Of a DNA stretch of 54,756 bases, positions 3,241-15,083 are shown in pieces (position 1 is the first letter of the stretch; each line of letters begins with the position of its first letter). A program made the translations under genes and the position numbers. The stretch is taken from the NCBI GenBank assembly GCA_902635795.1, contig CACPPH010000004.1, positions 1-54,756 of the forward strand. Direction: 5' to 3'. The notes below the pieces were generated by a model that ran no database searches, had not been told where the DNA came from, and was given only the letters and a program-made list of their open reading frames with translations. Source of the DNA: an uncultured Pelagibacteraceae bacterium (GTDB lineage Bacteria > Pseudomonadota > Alphaproteobacteria > Pelagibacterales > Pelagibacteraceae).

Positions 3241-4802
3241 TATTTTAGTTTATCATTTATTAATTCAATTGTTTCAGTAAGTCCAAAGAAACTTATAAAA
3301 AAACCCATTCTAGGTCCGTTTTCTTCACCAAAAACTACTTGATAAATTAGTTTAAACCAATCTCTCAAATTTTTTTCATATCCGTTTTCTTTTCCTACAG
3401 AATAAACATATGTTTGTATTTCCTCAGGGCTTAGAGTTTGATCAATTTCTTCTAATTTTTTTATTAAATTAACTAAAGCTTTTTTTTCTTCTAAATTCGG
3501 TTTTTTAAATTTTTTTTTAGGCTCTACTTTATCTTTAAAATAATTAATTGCATAATTTATCAGTCCGTCAAGAATTTTGTGATCACTCGGTTTTATTTCT
3601 TTATGGAATCTATTAATAAATTTCCAGAGAACATCTTTTTCATTCGCATTACTTGATCCAACTAGATTAAGTAACATTGAAAAAGGCATAACTATTTTTT
3701 CATTTGGCGGTTTTCCATTATGAACGTGCCACACAGGATTTTGAATCTTATCTTTTTCATTTTGAATTTTGTATTTTTCAATCAACGTGAGGTATTCATC
3801 TACTGTTTTTGGCACTACTTCTGAGTATAATTTTTTAGCCCTTTTCGGATTTGGGTACATATACAACGCTAAACTTTCTGGAGAAGCGTATCTTAACCAT
3901 TCTTCGATGGAAATACCATTGCCTTTAGATTTAGAAATTTTTTCTCCTTTTTCATCAAGAAATAATTCATAAGCAAATCCATTTGGCGGAACTTTTCCGA
4001 GAGATCGACAAATTTTACTAGATAATATTGCGCTTTCAGTTAAATCTTTACCGTACATTTCAAAATCAACATTAAAAGTAAACCAACGCATCGCCCAGTC
4101 TACTTTCCATTGTAATTTACAATAACCGTTTAAAATACTTGTTTCTAATTTTTGACCGTTATTTTCAAATATTACTCTTCCTGATTTTTGGTCCATATCT
4201 ACCATTGGAATTTCGAGAACAACGCCTGTTTTAGGGCATATAGGTAAAAATGGACAATAGGTTTTTCTTCTTTCCTCTCTTAAGGTCGGTAAAATTATAT
4301 TCATAATTTCATCATATTTTTCTAAAACTCTAATTAAGGAATTGTTAAAAATTCCTTTTTTGTAATTTTCAGTTGAGCTTTTAAATAAGAATTTAAAATT
4401 AAATCTTTGTAAAAATTCTTTAAGCATCTCGTTATTATGCTCACCAAAACTGTTGAATTTTTTAAAAGGATCAGGAATTGATGTAAGAGGTTTACCTAAA
4501 TTTTTTTTTAATACTTCATCGTTAGGAATATTATCTGGTACTTTTCTCAAACCATCCATGTCATCTGAAAACGTGATTAACTCATGATCAATTTTTTGAA
4601 TATGATTTAAAGCATTTATCATCATAGATGTTCTAGCTACTTCGCCAAAGGTTCCAATATGGGGGAGTCCACTTGGACCATATCCTGTTTGAAAAGTAAT
4701 TTTGTCCTTTTTTTTAATTAGCTCTTTTCGATCCTTTAAAAGTTTCCTTACTTCTACGAAGGGCCAAGATGATGTCGACTGAATTAAGTTATTATCAAGC
4801 AT
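3240..4802 (-). CDS. lysS: Lysine--tRNA ligase, class I
   Basis: Class I signatures: GPSGLPHIGTFGE (HIGH-like) and KISKSKGNG (KMSKS-like); 520 aa. Confidence 0.93.
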   Translation of the reverse strand: MLDNNLIQSTSSWPFVEVRKLLKDRKELIKKKDKITFQTGYGPSGLPHIGTFGEVARTSMMINALNHIQKIDHELITFSDDMDGLRKVPDNIPNDEVLKKNLGKPLTSIPDPFKKFNSFGEHNNEMLKEFLQRFNFKFLFKSSTENYKKGIFNNSLIRVLEKYDEIMNIILPTLREERRKTYCPFLPICPKTGVVLEIPMVDMDQKSGRVIFENNGQKLETSILNGYCKLQWKVDWAMRWFTFNVDFEMYGKDLTESAILSSKICRSLGKVPPNGFAYELFLDEKGEKISKSKGNGISIEEWLRYASPESLALYMYPNPKRAKKLYSEVVPKTVDEYLTLIEKYKIQNEKDKIQNPVWHVHNGKPPNEKIVMPFSMLLNLVGSSNANEKDVLWKFINRFHKEIKPSDHKILDGLINYAINYFKDKVEPKKKFKKPNLEEKKALVNLIKKLEEIDQTLSPEEIQTYVYSVGKENGYEKNLRDWFKLIYQVVFGEENGPRMGFFISFFGLTETIELINDKLK

Positions 4803-8455: not shown

Positions 8456-8493
8456 GTGCAAAGGCAGCTTCAGTCTCCCTCCACTGCCCTTAA
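8456..8493. terminator. Possible convergent terminator or structured RNA hairpin
   Basis: GC-rich patch in an AT-rich intergenic region directly after the NlpC/P60 stop. aaggcag and ctgccctt can form a 7-bp stem with one bulge around a 16-nt loop; no strong U-tract. Confidence 0.35.
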
Positions 8494-8556
8494 TAATATT
8501 TTAAACGATTCGACCAAAATAATTAAGACCTTTATAAATTTAGTGTGGATATATAA

Positions 8557-8630
8557 TGGCGGAAAGAGAGGGATTCGAACCCTCGAAACGGTTTCCCGTT
8601 TACACGCTTTCCAAGCGTGCGCCTTCAACC
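8557..8630 (-). pseudogene. 3' fragment of tRNA-Ser (GGA), duplicate of 9815..9888
   Basis: 74 nt from tggcggaaagagaggg... to ...gcgccttcaacc match the intact tRNA-Ser with one mismatch (8564). Identity stops at the D-arm and the 5' acceptor strand is absent. Confidence 0.9.
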
Positions 8631-8716
8631 TAGCCTTCTAGAGTTATTGATTAGTGAACATTAATTTTTTGAATTTCGATAAAATTTGAGCTGGCGACAG
8701 CAATACGGAGTCAGAA

Positions 8717-9766
8717 TTAATTGCAGAAAGTATAAAGTGTAGAATCCTCTAATAATTTAGCAACATCTTTTGTTGAAAACCAACTAGTCGGAACTTTTAC
8801 CTGATTAGCATCTAAAAAATTTTTCACCGAGCTAGTTTTAATCCCAAAGTTTTGACCTTCGGAGATGTTTTTTTTCATTCCCATAACAGATACGGCTACT
8901 AATTTGCCGGTCTCTTCATCGACGATTGGACCTCCGCTGTTTCCAGGATTTAATGCAGCATCAACTTGAACAAGTGTTGAGTCGTCGTTAGGTCCTTTTA
9001 AAGAACTTACTATTCCAGAAGTAAACTTTAAATCATCGCTTATAAATTTTCCAAATGGATAACCTGATGCTATAATCCTTTGAAGTTTTTTAGGTTGACT
9101 ATTAGAAAGTGCAACATATTTAGTATTAGTTAAATTTGCTTTGAGCAAAGCTAAATCAAGTAATTGATCTTTAGCAATTACCTTAGTTTGAATATCTTTG
9201 TCGTTATATTTAATTTTAGGATTTGAGGAGCAACTTTTAATAACGTGATAATTTGTAATTATGTGCCCCCTGTTAGTCACAAAAAAAGCTGAACCTGACG
9301 ACCCTTTTGAAGTGCTTGTTTTAGTTTTTGTTTTTGGTTTAGATGCTACTCTGTTATTATTTTTACCGCTAGATTGTCTTGGTTTTAAGACAATAGCAGT
9401 AGCGTACTGTCTTGTAGTAGGATCATAAACTTGCTCGCTAACTTGTTTATATTTACTTAAATCTTTTTGATATTTTGATTTCCAATCAGCCGCTTCTGAA
9501 GCCGTAACAGTTCTATCGTTTATGTATTTTGGCATACAGTTTGCATATGGATTATAATTTTGGCATCTCATTATTGCCTCAAAAACTGCTATTTCAATTG
9601 TAGGTCTAGCCCAAGAAGCTCCATAGCCTCCATCACCACTTTCAGCAGAAGCTTTTTGAGGTTTGACAACTGGTGAAAAGTATACTGAAGGAGTTCCGCA
9701 TGCTGACAAAAGCATTAAAGATATAATCACTAAAAATTTTTTTATATGTTGACGACAATACGACAT
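8717..9766 (-). CDS. Trypsin-like serine protease (S1C/Do-like), predicted lipoprotein
   Basis: Start re-called at ATG 9766 because the longer ORF runs through a tRNA. Lipobox LLSAC; catalytic triad contexts [30 protein letters not shown]. Confidence 0.85.
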
Positions 9767-9814
9767 CAAAACTATAATATTATATATTTTAGGTTGTGCA
9801 AGACTATTAAAAAA

Positions 9815-9904
9815 TGGCGGAGAGAGAGGGATTCGAACCCTCGAAACGGTTTCCCGTTTACACGCTTTCCAAGCGTGCGCCTTCAACCACTCGGCCACCT
9901 CTCC
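9815..9904 (-). tRNA. tRNA-Ser (GGA anticodon), CCA encoded
   Basis: Reverse complement GGAGAGGTGGCCGAGTGGTTGAAGGCGCACGCTTGGAAAGCGTGTAAACGGGAAACCGTTTCGAGGGTTCGAATCCCTCTCTCTCCGCCA folds as a type II tRNA with a long variable arm. Confidence 0.97.
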
Positions 9905-9964
9905 AAGTTTAATAAATATTAAAAGTAGTATATAAAACAATATTTAAATAAGTTGAAGGAAAGA

Positions 9965-10975
9965 ATGAATAAGCAAAATCTCATTATTTTGAACAACGAA
10001 AAAGTTTTCAAAGATGGAGATAATTATTTTTGTGAAAATTTAGATCTAAAGATAGTCCCCGAGGGACTTAACAGTTTTTTTAATGTAAAATTTATAGTAA
10101 GAAGCTCAAAAAAAAAGGGGGCTCAAAAATTAAATTTAAAAGATATTAATACAGCATCGAATATTTTTTTATATATTTTTAATGTAATTAAATCTTTTAA
10201 TACTAATTCAAAATATCTTATTATTTCAATAACCCCTTATACATTCTTAGCTTATTTGTTTTTACTTATTTTTAGAAAAAAAGTTTACTTATATTTATGG
10301 AGCGATGGTCACGAGGAATGGGAACATTTAATTGGTAAATGGTCAGTTTGGATTTATAGCTTAATGTATAATATTTGTATTTTAAAATCAGAAATAATTG
10401 TATGTAATAAAAGATTAACCCGCAAAAAATCACATCTTATATCTATTTCAAGGTTAGATGAACAATGGTTTAGTAATATTAAAAAAGTTTCAAGTGATAA
10501 AGCAAATTTTTTATATGTTGGTAGAATAAGTAAAGAAAAAGGAATTTTTAATTTTATTAAAATTTTTGATAAAATGAATTTAAATAGTACTTTGTCAATT
10601 GTAGGTAACACAGAAAAATTTTCTTTAAATAATCCAAAAATTATTAAAATTGGTTACATATCAGATGCTAAATCATTGATAAGAATTTATGATGAGTGTA
10701 ACATTACTATCCTTCCCTCTTACACTGAGGGCTATCCTTACGTTATTGATGAATCTCTATCTAGGTTAAGGCCAGTAATTATATTTGAAGAAATATCTTA
10801 TGTTGTAAACGATAAAGAGGGTATTTATATTTCAAAAAGAAATTCGGATTCCTTAAGACAAACTACTGAGTACATTCTTAAAAATTATACTGCTATTCAG
10901 AGTAAAATGTCAAAAAACACACTGCCAACAAAAAAAAGTATGTTAAAACAAATTTCAGACATCATTATTGTCTAG
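9965..10975 (+). CDS. Glycosyltransferase, GT4/group 1-like
   Basis: ANFLYVGRISKEKGIFNFIKIFDKM, ILPSYTEGYPYVIDESL motifs; ATG at 9965 preceded by aaggaaag is more likely than TTG at 9953. Confidence 0.75.
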   Translation: MNKQNLIILNNEKVFKDGDNYFCENLDLKIVPEGLNSFFNVKFIVRSSKKKGAQKLNLKDINTASNIFLYIFNVIKSFNTNSKYLIISITPYTFLAYLFLLIFRKKVYLYLWSDGHEEWEHLIGKWSVWIYSLMYNICILKSEIIVCNKRLTRKKSHLISISRLDEQWFSNIKKVSSDKANFLYVGRISKEKGIFNFIKIFDKMNLNSTLSIVGNTEKFSLNNPKIIKIGYISDAKSLIRIYDECNITILPSYTEGYPYVIDESLSRLRPVIIFEEISYVVNDKEGIYISKRNSDSLRQTTEYILKNYTAIQSKMSKNTLPTKKSMLKQISDIIIV

Positions 10976-10985
10976 AAGTTTTTAA

Positions 10986-11906
10986 ATGAAAAAAGGAAAA
11001 TATCTTATAACAGGATGCGCTGGATTTATTGGATCTCATCTTACTGAAAAACTTTATAAAAAATATAATTTAATACTTGTAGATGATTTATCCGAAGGGA
11101 AAAAGAGTAAACTGCCTAAAAAATTAAGAAAAAAACTAATTAATAAGAAAATTCAAGATATAAAAAAAATAAATTCAAAAAATATCAAAGGAATTTTTCA
11201 CTTAGCTGCTCAATCATCAGTTCCAGCATCTATTAAAGATTTTTATAAAAGTTCGACTAATAATATTAATAGTACTTTGAAAGTCTTCGAAATAGCTAGA
11301 AATTATTCTATTCCTGTAGTTTATGCATCGTCCTCTGCGATATACGGTAACTTACCAAATGGCAATGATAATAAAAAAAAATTTCAAATATCTTCACCTT
11401 ATGCTCAAGATAAATTATCTTTAGAAGATTATGCTAAACTCTGTTTTGAAATATTTAATATTTCCTCAATTGGATTAAGGTTTTTTAATGTTTACGGCTC
11501 AAAACAAAACGCTAATAGCCCGTATTCTGCAGTAATACCAATATTTATTAATAAAATGAAAAAAAACTTACCAATCACTATAAATGGTGGGTTTCAGACT
11601 AGAGATTTTATATATATTGATGACGTTATAAAAATTCTTTTAATTTCCATGAAAAAAGCACAAGATAAAAAAATTTCAGATAATTTTAATGTTGGAACAG
11701 GACGATCAATTAAAATTAGTCATCTTTACCAAATAATAAAAAAAAGAGTTCCAAATAATTCAAAAATAATAAGAAAAAAATTAGAAAAATTTGATCCAAA
11801 AAAATCAAGCGGAAAATTGGAAAAAATTAAGAAAAATTTAATAGGAAATAAATTTAAATTCACAAGATTAGAGGATGGAATTGATAAAACAATAGAGTCT
11901 AATTAA
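10986..11906 (+). CDS. NAD-dependent sugar epimerase/dehydratase (extended SDR)
   Basis: TGCAGFIGSHLTEKL Rossmann motif; SSPYAQDKLSLE (YxxxK); TRDFIYIDDVI. Confidence 0.88.
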   Translation: MKKGKYLITGCAGFIGSHLTEKLYKKYNLILVDDLSEGKKSKLPKKLRKKLINKKIQDIKKINSKNIKGIFHLAAQSSVPASIKDFYKSSTNNINSTLKVFEIARNYSIPVVYASSSAIYGNLPNGNDNKKKFQISSPYAQDKLSLEDYAKLCFEIFNISSIGLRFFNVYGSKQNANSPYSAVIPIFINKMKKNLPITINGGFQTRDFIYIDDVIKILLISMKKAQDKKISDNFNVGTGRSIKISHLYQIIKKRVPNNSKIIRKKLEKFDPKKSSGKLEKIKKNLIGNKFKFTRLEDGIDKTIESN

Positions 11907-11910
11907 AAAT

Positions 11911-13158
11911 ATGAAATCGTACGATTGGATAATTGTTGGAGGGGGAGTAGCAGGAGTATCTGTTGCAGAAATTCTAACACGAGAAGGACATAAGGTAGCT
12001 CTGATTGAAAAAAATAAAAAATTAGCTTCAGTAGCAACTAGAGAATTTCATGAGTGGGTGCATACTGGATCACTATACACTTTAGTAAAAGATCAAATGA
12101 AAACTCTAAAGTACATCTTAGGATCTTTGGATGACCTATTGGAATTTTACAGTTGTTATAAAAATATGAATTTAATACCAACTGAGAATGGTCTTAAAAT
12201 TAACCAAAATAAAAATGGTTGGTTTAATGAAAATTTCATTAATTTTAAATATAGATTAAAAAATAGAAAATTTTTGTTAAATTGGATTTATTCAGTTTCT
12301 AGATCAATAGCATTGATAGAGGGAATAAGGAATCACGATTGGCTTAGACGCAGGGCTGGTATAATTGAAAGTGTAACATCCAAATACTATTTTCCAATAA
12401 TAAAAAATTTTTTTAGATTAATTTTATCTAATCAAAAATTTTTAAAACTCAAATCTACAGATTTCACAACAAATTCAAGATATTTATTAAAAGATTTACT
12501 ATCCAATTCAATTAAAAATGGATTAGAGGTATTTACTGAAAATGAACTTATAAATTTTGAAAGTAAAAATGGAAAAATTCAAGCTAGGTGCAAAAAGGGT
12601 CAAATAATCTCAGACAAAATAGTTTTATGTGTAGGTGGAAGTATTGAAAAATTTACTAAAATTAAAATAAAAAAAACTTTAGCTCCTATAGCGGTAGTTA
12701 AAAATGTCCCAGTTGAGACTGAATCGTTTGTAGAGTTAGACTATTTTAAAAAAAAATGTATAAATATTATTACGAAAGGTTCCACCTATGGTATGATTGG
12801 GGGTATAAGTTTATCAAATCAAGAAGAGGTGGAGGATTATTTTGATTATATGATAAATGAACATAAGAAAGCAAATCCAAGTATTGAAATTTTAGAAAAA
12901 TATGTTGGAGTAAAAAATGAGATAATTTCTAAGGGAGAAAGTAGAAATTATATTTTTCATATCAATCAAGAATTAGGTAAAGAGAATGTATGGTCAATAA
13001 TACCAGGAAAATTTACTCTTGCATTTAGTATTGCGCCTGAATTTTACAGATTAGTATACAAAAAAAATCCAAGAAAATTTTTTGATACTTCAGATAATGA
13101 AAATGATACAAATTTTATAGATGAAACAGTTTGGGGAGAAATTCAAAACAAAAGTTAA
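11911..13158 (+). CDS. FAD-dependent oxidoreductase (DAO-like)
   Basis: N-terminal dinucleotide fold DWIIVGGGVAGVSVAEILTREGHKVALIEKN; 415 aa. Confidence 0.78.
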   Translation: MKSYDWIIVGGGVAGVSVAEILTREGHKVALIEKNKKLASVATREFHEWVHTGSLYTLVKDQMKTLKYILGSLDDLLEFYSCYKNMNLIPTENGLKINQNKNGWFNENFINFKYRLKNRKFLLNWIYSVSRSIALIEGIRNHDWLRRRAGIIESVTSKYYFPIIKNFFRLILSNQKFLKLKSTDFTTNSRYLLKDLLSNSIKNGLEVFTENELINFESKNGKIQARCKKGQIISDKIVLCVGGSIEKFTKIKIKKTLAPIAVVKNVPVETESFVELDYFKKKCINIITKGSTYGMIGGISLSNQEEVEDYFDYMINEHKKANPSIEILEKYVGVKNEIISKGESRNYIFHINQELGKENVWSIIPGKFTLAFSIAPEFYRLVYKKNPRKFFDTSDNENDTNFIDETVWGEIQNKS

Positions 13159-13161
13159 ATT

Positions 13162-14205
13162 ATGTCTACAATTAAAATACCTAAAGACTCAATTAATTTT
13201 TTTAAAAGTAAGCAGGACGAAATTTTTAATTCTGGAAACTTAGCTGAGGGACCTTGGAATAAAAAACTTTCAGAGGAAATTAAAACGATCTCAGGTTCAA
13301 GCAACGCGGTATCAGTAAATTCAAATGGAAGTGGACTGGTTGCAATTTTATTAATTTTCAAAAATTATTTTGGTCGAGAGGATATAATGATTCAATCAAA
13401 TACTATGTATGGAGTAAAAACTATTGTAGGCACCGCAGGGTATAATCTTGTAAATTATATCGATTGTAAAATACAGACTTTGATGCCAGGTATAGAGGAA
13501 GTTAAAAAAGCAATAGAGAATTATAAAGGTGATAAAAATAAACTCGTAATAATGCTTAGTGATATAGGTGGGATCATTAACCCAGACATTGAAAAAATAT
13601 CTTCATTTCTAAAAACGAACAATATTCTTTTACTTGAAGATGCTGCACATAGTTTTGGGGCTAAACTAAATAATAAATTTGCTGGAACTTTTGGGGACGC
13701 TGGAGTGTATTCCTATTATTCTACCAAAGCTATATTTGCGGGTGAGGGAGGTGTAGCTGTTACCAACAACAATGAATTAGGATTAATGCTTCAAGATTTT
13801 ATCGCATATGACAGATTCAAACAAAAAATGCCTATTGGTTGTAATATTAGATTATCAGAATTGCAGGCTTTAATGATTTATTCTGTAGTACGAAATTATA
13901 AAAACATTATTTTAAACAAAAGTGAAATTGCAGAAAAATATATTGAATTTTGTAAAAAGAATGAGATAGATTTTATCAATCAAACGGATAATAATAATTT
14001 TGGTAATTATTACAAATTTACAATTATATCCTCTGAAAAAAAAGTTTCTGATAAATACCCTAAAATTCAAACTACAACATCCAAAGTTTATGACTACGCA
14101 CTTGGAAATAATAAAGATATTCCATCCAAACATTTATGCCTGCCAATTTGGTACGGTTTGGAGGAACCAGTCATTAATAAAGTTTTAAGTGAGCTTCAAA
14201 GATAA
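13162..14205 (+). CDS. DegT/DnrJ/EryC1-family PLP aminotransferase
   Basis: LLLEDAAHSFGAKLNNKFAGTFGDAGVYSYYSTKAIFAGEGGVAVTNN motif with PLP lysine. Confidence 0.87.
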   Translation: MSTIKIPKDSINFFKSKQDEIFNSGNLAEGPWNKKLSEEIKTISGSSNAVSVNSNGSGLVAILLIFKNYFGREDIMIQSNTMYGVKTIVGTAGYNLVNYIDCKIQTLMPGIEEVKKAIENYKGDKNKLVIMLSDIGGIINPDIEKISSFLKTNNILLLEDAAHSFGAKLNNKFAGTFGDAGVYSYYSTKAIFAGEGGVAVTNNNELGLMLQDFIAYDRFKQKMPIGCNIRLSELQALMIYSVVRNYKNIILNKSEIAEKYIEFCKKNEIDFINQTDNNNFGNYYKFTIISSEKKVSDKYPKIQTTTSKVYDYALGNNKDIPSKHLCLPIWYGLEEPVINKVLSELQR

Positions 14206-15083
14206 TTTATAAAGCTTTTATAAAACCTCGAGTCTTTTCTAATAGCAAATAAATCACTTGATGTCTCACGAGGTGTATAATTGATCACTTTGCCGTCAAC
14301 TATTGCATAAAGTTCATACTTGAAATCTTTTAAAAATTTTAAGATTTCTTTTTTTTTTCTTGTCATTTCACATAAAAAAATTGGTTTAAATTTTCTAATA
14401 GTTTTTTTAGATTTCATCAAAATTTCATATTCAGCTCCCTCAGAGTCTATTTTTATAAAATCAACAATGTTTAATTTCTTTTGATTTATAATTAAATTAT
14501 CTATAGTGAATGATTTTACTTTTAATTTTTTTTTTATTTTCTTATCTGCAAAATACACATCTCTTGCTAATGAATAATAACCATGCTCATCGTTTACTCT
14601 ATATAAGTCCTGTTGAGTATCTTTATTTGAAATAACTCCTTTTATAAGCTGAATTTTTTTTGAATTAACTCTATTTAATCTTAAAATTTCCTTAAAATCT
14701 CTAATAGCTTCGTCTAATGGCTCAATAGAAATTCCTTTCACATTTTTATTTAGAGAAATTAAATACATCGAAAAGAAACCTCTAGAGCATCCAATATCAA
14801 TAAAATTAAATTTATCATTAAAAATTTTTTGACCAATTTTGAAAAAAGGGTCATATCCCTCTCTCAAAATATACTGACCCCTTCCGCCTAAACCAGATTT
14901 TGGATAATTCTTAAAAGTGTATACAAATAAAGAATTACCAAAGTTAATCTTATATTTAAAAGATATATTCAATAAAGATGAGAAAAATATAATCAGAACT
15001 CTGTAAATTATTTTAAAGGGCTGATTATAAAATTCTTGCGATTTTAAAATGAGGCTTAATTTAATTAAATTACTTTTTAACAT
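14196..15083 (-). CDS. FkbM-family methyltransferase
   Basis: FIDIGCSRGFFSMYLI; IDNLI...VDFIKIDSEGAEYEIL typical of FkbM. Confidence 0.82.
   Translation of the reverse strand: MLKSNLIKLSLILKSQEFYNQPFKIIYRVLIIFFSSLLNISFKYKINFGNSLFVYTFKNYPKSGLGGRGQYILREGYDPFFKIGQKIFNDKFNFIDIGCSRGFFSMYLISLNKNVKGISIEPLDEAIRDFKEILRLNRVNSKKIQLIKGVISNKDTQQDLYRVNDEHGYYSLARDVYFADKKIKKKLKVKSFTIDNLIINQKKLNIVDFIKIDSEGAEYEILMKSKKTIRKFKPIFLCEMTRKKKEILKFLKDFKYELYAIVDGKVINYTPRETSSDLFAIRKDSRFYKSFINYL

Follow-up and report, generated by a model that had tools for sequence, protein, structure and literature searches.

Described systems and the SAR11 cassette

Gene cassettes anchored at transfer RNA (tRNA) genes are already known from streamlined marine bacteria other than SAR11, which is among the most abundant bacterial groups of the ocean. 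Here we describe such a cassette in a 54,756-nucleotide stretch of DNA (the window), which is contig C4 of a 0.73 Mb, 65%-complete Pelagibacteraceae assembly (genome G000). It is a 1,184-bp segment with a single protease gene, situated between an intact tRNA-Ser(GGA) gene and a partial copy of that gene. With a probability of roughly 0.8, we regard it as a small non-autonomous integrative element at the tRNA 3' end and as one member of a family of interchangeable SAR11 cassettes.

The additive flexible islands of Candidatus Actinomarinales consist of gene cassettes at tRNAs with partial tRNA repeats, and they are shared between genera at ~75% identity (PMC7771536). The SAR11 site resembles them in its variable cargo at a tRNA and in the partial tRNA direct repeat at the cassette end. 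It differs from what the passages of that paper considered here describe by a shared promoter-like motif, arm-like repeats and single-gene size; an inferred position of strand exchange, 99% identity across distant hosts and a transfer-messenger RNA (tmRNA) site are further features that these passages do not contain. In fGI-2 of the Methylophilaceae, additive islands of 330 bp up to 42 kb come after repeats of the final 20 bp of tRNA-Lys (PMC10872708); this system differs from the SAR11 cassettes in its tRNA-Lys target, in islands of up to 42 kb and in that arm repeats are not described in the part of the source used. Tycheposons are described as marine, cargo-bearing elements of 4-200 kb that integrate next to tRNA genes and encode a tyrosine recombinase. 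The SAR11 cassettes share this location, but do not fit in size (0.4-2 kb) or in recombinase content (none encoded).

CALIN arrays are integron cassettes without an integrase (PMC11389934). The SAR11 cassettes appear to work in a similar way, with exchangeable gene cassettes, arrays and an enzyme that would act in trans, but their repeats are derived from the tRNA, recombination would take place at a tRNA 3' end flanked by arm-like repeats instead of at attC, and each cassette apparently has its own promoter. The Islander definition of an island comprises an intact tDNA, a same-orientation fragment, an integrase gene inside and a length of 2-200 kb (PMC4383910). The window cassette has the tDNA and the fragment, but not the integrase or the length (1,184 bp; family range 440-2,000 bp), and SAR11 cassettes thus escape this common detector, which requires an integrase and at least 2 kb. 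The searched passages of two SAR11 island papers do not mention a cassette site at tRNA-Ser; subscription literature was mostly outside this search.

A single gene between tRNA-Ser(GGA) and its fragment

The main features of the locus are:

9815..9904, minus strand: intact tRNA-Ser(GGA) gene, the integration target, 100% identical across most of the genus
8557..8630, minus strand: 74-nt tRNA-Ser piece (tRNA positions 17-90), the right junction, probably cassette-borne up to the crossover
8631..9814, minus strand: cassette of 1,184 bp, 99.3% identical to the cassette of genome AG-470-E16, where the flanks are unrelated, and missing at empty sites
8717..9766, minus strand: cargo, a Trypsin_2 trypsin-like predicted lipoprotein protease with His, Asp and Ser motifs as read from the sequence

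The initial annotation, made from the DNA letters, had described an intact tRNA-Ser(GGA) and a 74-nt copy in the same orientation with one mismatch and a sharp boundary in the D-arm. This was confirmed by tRNA calls and alignment: the two are on the same strand, 73/74 positions are identical, and identity begins abruptly at tRNA position 17, in the D-loop. With some adjacent bases included, the alignment spans 81 nt at 96% identity. Only one open reading frame (ORF) lies between the two. Its product, predicted earlier to be a secreted or lipoprotein trypsin-like protease, matches PF13365 (E=1.2e-27) and PF00089 (E=2.8e-9) and carries an apparent signal peptide with an LSAC lipobox. An integrase, which was not visible to the initial annotation, was also not found in the 65%-complete source genome. 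By base composition, the cassette does not stand out as foreign. A fragment with the identical 5' boundary is present in ~20 other genomes, and its origin by chance is thus excluded; those that are named belong to the Pelagibacteraceae, i.e. SAR11.

Empty sites and transfer between distant genomes

In relatives, the gene order is lepA, variable sugar genes, tRNA-Ser, a variable gap, nlpC/P60, MFS, trkH and lysK. The nlpC gene follows ~100 bp after the tRNA in G004, G031, G028, G021, G002, G007, G029, G006, G024 and G033. Alignment of the locus in relatives, as the initial annotation had proposed, revealed at least 10 empty sites with a single tRNA-Ser and no cassette. Their flank runs up to CGAATC and continues with a conserved hairpin-like block; the corresponding sequence of the window is:

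8507..8556, strand not assigned: ancestral flank TATCCACA..CAAC..AAGAGTCTTAA..CGAATC, the post-tRNA sequence of empty sites, from an alignment with 12 relatives without this cassette type

In the window and in G022, G008, G018 and G019, the sequence found behind the intact tRNA of empty sites comes after the fragment instead, and the DNA between tRNA and fragment is therefore an insertion.

Over its 1,184 bp, the window cassette shares 99.3% identity with its counterpart in AG-470-E16 (L248), whereas the flanks show no relationship (46% and 43% identity over aligned positions) and the lepA genes of the two genomes are 72% identical. In AG-470-E16, the tRNA-Ser gene adjoins an aldehyde dehydrogenase gene and is close to pyruvate dehydrogenase genes. 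Likewise, the cassettes of G008 and G011 are 99.2% identical, compared with 84% for lepA and 79% for nlpC. The high identity stops at the tRNA and at the tRNA piece and marks a recent transfer between distant species.

A family of cassettes with different cargo

A genus-wide search covered 169 genomes, 131 of which have the tRNA-Ser gene. Two or more copies of the 74-nt piece were present in 22 of these 131, and in 21/131 an extra copy lies no more than ~2.1 kb downstream of the tRNA. The second copy of G014 is within 2.8 kb; in G212 the extra copy was not found within the region fetched. All cassettes are 440-2,000 bp long, and no longer insert with a tRNA-Ser fragment was seen. Two cassettes are arranged in tandem in G014, and G448 and G466 have a second left end after the fragment. 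None of the listed cassettes contains an integrase ORF.

The alternative cargo that the initial annotation had suggested looking for between the repeats was found in the genomes of relatives, with ~14 different cargos occupying the site. Among them are three distinct trypsin-like lipoproteins (window, G502, G476), which have a common catalytic domain and different N-termini, autotransporter-like proteins of ~579 aa, a lipoprotein with DUF2846 (G504), several small secreted proteins (G018, G014, G106, G470, G432, G514), a protein of 211 aa that weakly matches nucleotidyltransferases (G012, G220) and a pair of unclassified ORFs (G420). By a simple check of N-terminal hydrophobicity, most cargos, but not all, look exported. 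The predicted structure of the 579-aa cargo has a confident N-terminal beta-helix and a low-confidence C-terminus, and no PDB entry matched at E<=0.001; this is only suggestive of an autotransporter fold.

Cassette ends and 11-bp repeats

The ends of the window cassette contain the following elements:

9774..9801, minus strand: promoter-like motif TTGCAC (9801-9796) N16 TATTAT (9779-9774) at the left end, conserved in most cassettes
9749..9769, minus strand: left arm-like 11-bp direct repeats TGATGTCGTAT/TGTCGTCAAC, from sequence alignment and a period-11 test
8693..8713, minus strand: right arm-like element TGACTCCGTATTGCTGTCGCC, a degenerate repeat missed by the period-11 test
8631..8653, minus strand: conserved right-end motif TAATCAATAACTCTAGAAGGCTA, adjoining the tRNA piece and common to cassettes with different cargo
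Outermost cassette sequence: right end ..TCTAGAAGGCTA followed by the tRNA piece; left end TTTTTTAATAGTCTTGCAC..

Most left ends of the family carry TTGCAC (or TTGTAC) N16 TAAAAT at a constant distance from the tRNA, followed by direct repeats with a period of 11 bp (GGTCGTCGTAT GGTCGTC and relatives). At the right ends, comparable repeats lie 75-90 bp ahead of the tRNA piece, and there is a conserved motif that terminates in GCTA; several cassettes, that of the window among them, have a degenerate or weak right repeat. When 32 ends of 16 cassettes were pooled, period-11 repeats scored 201, against a mean of 146.5 and a maximum of 161 in shuffled sequences, and other periods scored 127-161. 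In this pooled test, arm-type repeats flank the core on both sides, as in att sites of tyrosine recombinases. The arm motif occurs 18 times in 14/169 genus genomes, and each locus inspected was at the tRNA-Ser site. G008 has a clear terminator-like hairpin at the right end; the window has no clear one.

Probable position of strand exchange

The 3' end of tRNA genes is among the known sites of bacterial integrases. The intact tRNA of AG-470-E16 departs from the genus type at positions 49, 53, 57, 58, 64 and 78, and these variants are native because relatives of AG-470-E16 share most of them. Its fragment is of the donor type at all six positions, and the flank behind the fragment matches that of its relatives at 74% (shuffled mean 47, maximum 56). 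A native tRNA, a donor-type fragment and a native flank place the crossover 3' of position 78, which means that the cassette takes the 74-nt piece along when it moves. G014 is consistent with this: its second fragment has variants at 41, 64 and 78. A crossover in the D-loop, where identity starts, was dropped on the AG-470-E16 evidence. These sequence comparisons strongly indicate strand exchange in the following region, with the 74-nt piece carried on the right end of the cassette:

9815..9826, minus strand: probable strand-exchange region, tRNA positions 79-90 (CTCTCTCCGCCA), from the native variants of AG-470-E16 up to position 78

The fragment had initially been taken for the displaced 3' end of the host gene; it is probably a tRNA piece brought by the cassette, the strands being exchanged within the final 12 nt of the tRNA.

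Search for a possible helper enzyme

Exact scans of IMG/VR with the 74-nt piece, the tRNA 3' end and the right-end, left-end and arm motifs gave nothing recognisable as SAR11; the sole arm-motif match (L290) is to a coding region, on a contig that is unrelated. INPHARED yielded matches only to tRNA-Ser genes of other organisms and their phages. The protease is absent from the viral contigs searched, and phage records contain only distant DegQ-like matches to it. The phage-type integrases of the genus were rejected as partners, as they are located at tRNA-Leu, -Met, -Glu or -Val or have no tRNA nearby, and are not at tRNA-Ser. A conserved Xer-like recombinase was also considered as a helper, its presence not clearly tracking the cassettes in these incomplete genomes.

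One divergent tyrosine recombinase of 304-325 aa was seen in the variable sugar-gene region of most genus genomes (e.g. L121-L134), unlike in the sister family, which has two strong XerC/XerD-like matches. Small satellite-like elements at tRNA-Met and tRNA-Glu (L282 in G010, L284 in G450) combine an integrase with a large ORF of primase/helicase size, and prophage-like regions are present at tRNA-Leu (L283, L285, L286).

Cassettes at tmRNA and in other lineages

The permuted tmRNA gene is a second hot spot (L342; also L006, L007, L343-L345), with units of 0.4-2 kb and a 23-29-nt tmRNA piece. In G034 and G015, homologous proteases adjoin tmRNA; they lie between 23-29-nt copies of the tmRNA piece and have 11-bp repeats of their own. 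The source genome itself has a tmRNA cassette of 1,216 bp with two or three small ORFs on its contig C9, and others are found in G018, G021 and G008.

G000:C9:2724-2746 and 3963-3985: tmRNA-piece copies of the source genome (L342, G000:C9:1-7000)

Several tmRNA-site units are bounded by 11-bp repeats on either side; the two repeats of one cassette usually agree with each other, but those of different cassettes do not (GGGCGGAGCT, ACTCGTCC, GGACTCA). The 386-bp units of G008 and G018 show no obvious repeats. Most of the cargo at the tmRNA site lies on the opposite strand, which ties the repeats to the cassette ends and not to the gene.

In G516, a distant genome, tRNA-Ser is the site of a lipoprotein cassette of 636 bp, whose repeats are GGCGGCGCTGT. 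Small inserts after tRNA-Ser without an evident integrase were also seen in another family of the order (L097-L100 and L102, i.e. G050, G053, G038, G041 and G037). They end in a tRNA-Ser piece that starts at about position 33, in the anticodon loop, preceded by conserved ATTATCCTCTAATCT..GACTCAT.

Proposed mechanism and alternative explanations

We propose that the mobile unit consists of one secreted-protease gene with its own promoter-like sequence between recombination-site ends. The arms, the core and the precise ends suggest that a tyrosine recombinase acts in trans, and its arm-binding domain would read the 11-bp repeats. The cassette may move as a circle, probably aided by a phage, a satellite or vesicles, and its cargo may alter the cell envelope. 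Several observations weigh against this proposal: scans of genus genomes and of IMG/VR did not turn up an integrase with matching arms, no circular form of the cassette was observed, the left arm is missing from some autotransporter-like cassettes, and the crossover placement consists of one clear case (AG-470-E16) and one supporting case (G014).

The same lack of an integrase would be expected if RecA-dependent homologous recombination across the 74-bp repeats, after uptake of foreign DNA or by a single crossover with a circle, had swapped the cassettes without a dedicated recombinase. The near-perfect identity of 74 bp at both ends and the identity of the tRNA piece to the host tRNA in many cassettes agree with this, but it would leave the conserved 11-bp arm repeats at both ends without a purpose, and in AG-470-E16 the exchange took place in the last 12 nt although the remaining repeat is 92% identical. 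The same cassette moreover occurs in unrelated chromosomal surroundings, and we thus consider this explanation unlikely. A prophage or genomic island that inserted once, lost its integrase and decayed to a single gene, the scar of the initial annotation, would account for the tRNA, the fragment, their direction and the missing integrase. It is highly improbable in view of the many different cargos with the same ends elsewhere and the size of 440-2,000 bp with no long insert bearing the fragment; a cassette that is 99.3% conserved in a distant host is not a decaying scar. ARAGORN calls the fragment a tRNA (8557-8639), which would speak for a tandem duplication or for a second tRNA-Ser gene that is old and degenerate. 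The Rfam tRNA model, however, matches the intact gene only, so that the fragment is not a second tRNA gene, and empty sites have one tRNA and the fragment is tied to cassettes. This origin can practically be dismissed, as can a protease that is always present in relatives next to an old second tRNA, the situation that the initial annotation had named as counter-evidence. Of its three options, the minimal cassette is the one supported by the empty sites and the other cargo in relatives.

Beyond the small integrative element at tRNA-Ser, a general integron-like SAR11 system at tRNA and tmRNA genes is conceivable, although we put it forward tentatively and at slightly less than even odds. It would comprise units of one to a few genes, mostly secreted or envelope-related, with matching 11-bp arms of several specificities, recombinases acting in trans and family-wide exchange. 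Carrying one to a few mostly secreted or envelope genes each, the SAR11 cassettes are a concrete vehicle for the swapping of surface genes in streamlined genomes. Due to their defined ends, they can be searched for in reads, and the question of the helper enzyme is directly testable.

Neighbouring features

Between the tRNA site and nlpC, the window contains a hairpin-like block (8462-8490, GGCAGCTTCAGTCTCCCTCCACTGCC) that is exactly conserved in many relatives and gave no match in Rfam. On the other side of the cassette site, the sugar and envelope genes between lepA and tRNA-Ser (9953-15083) differ in many relatives, and a replacement-type island thus lies directly upstream of the site.
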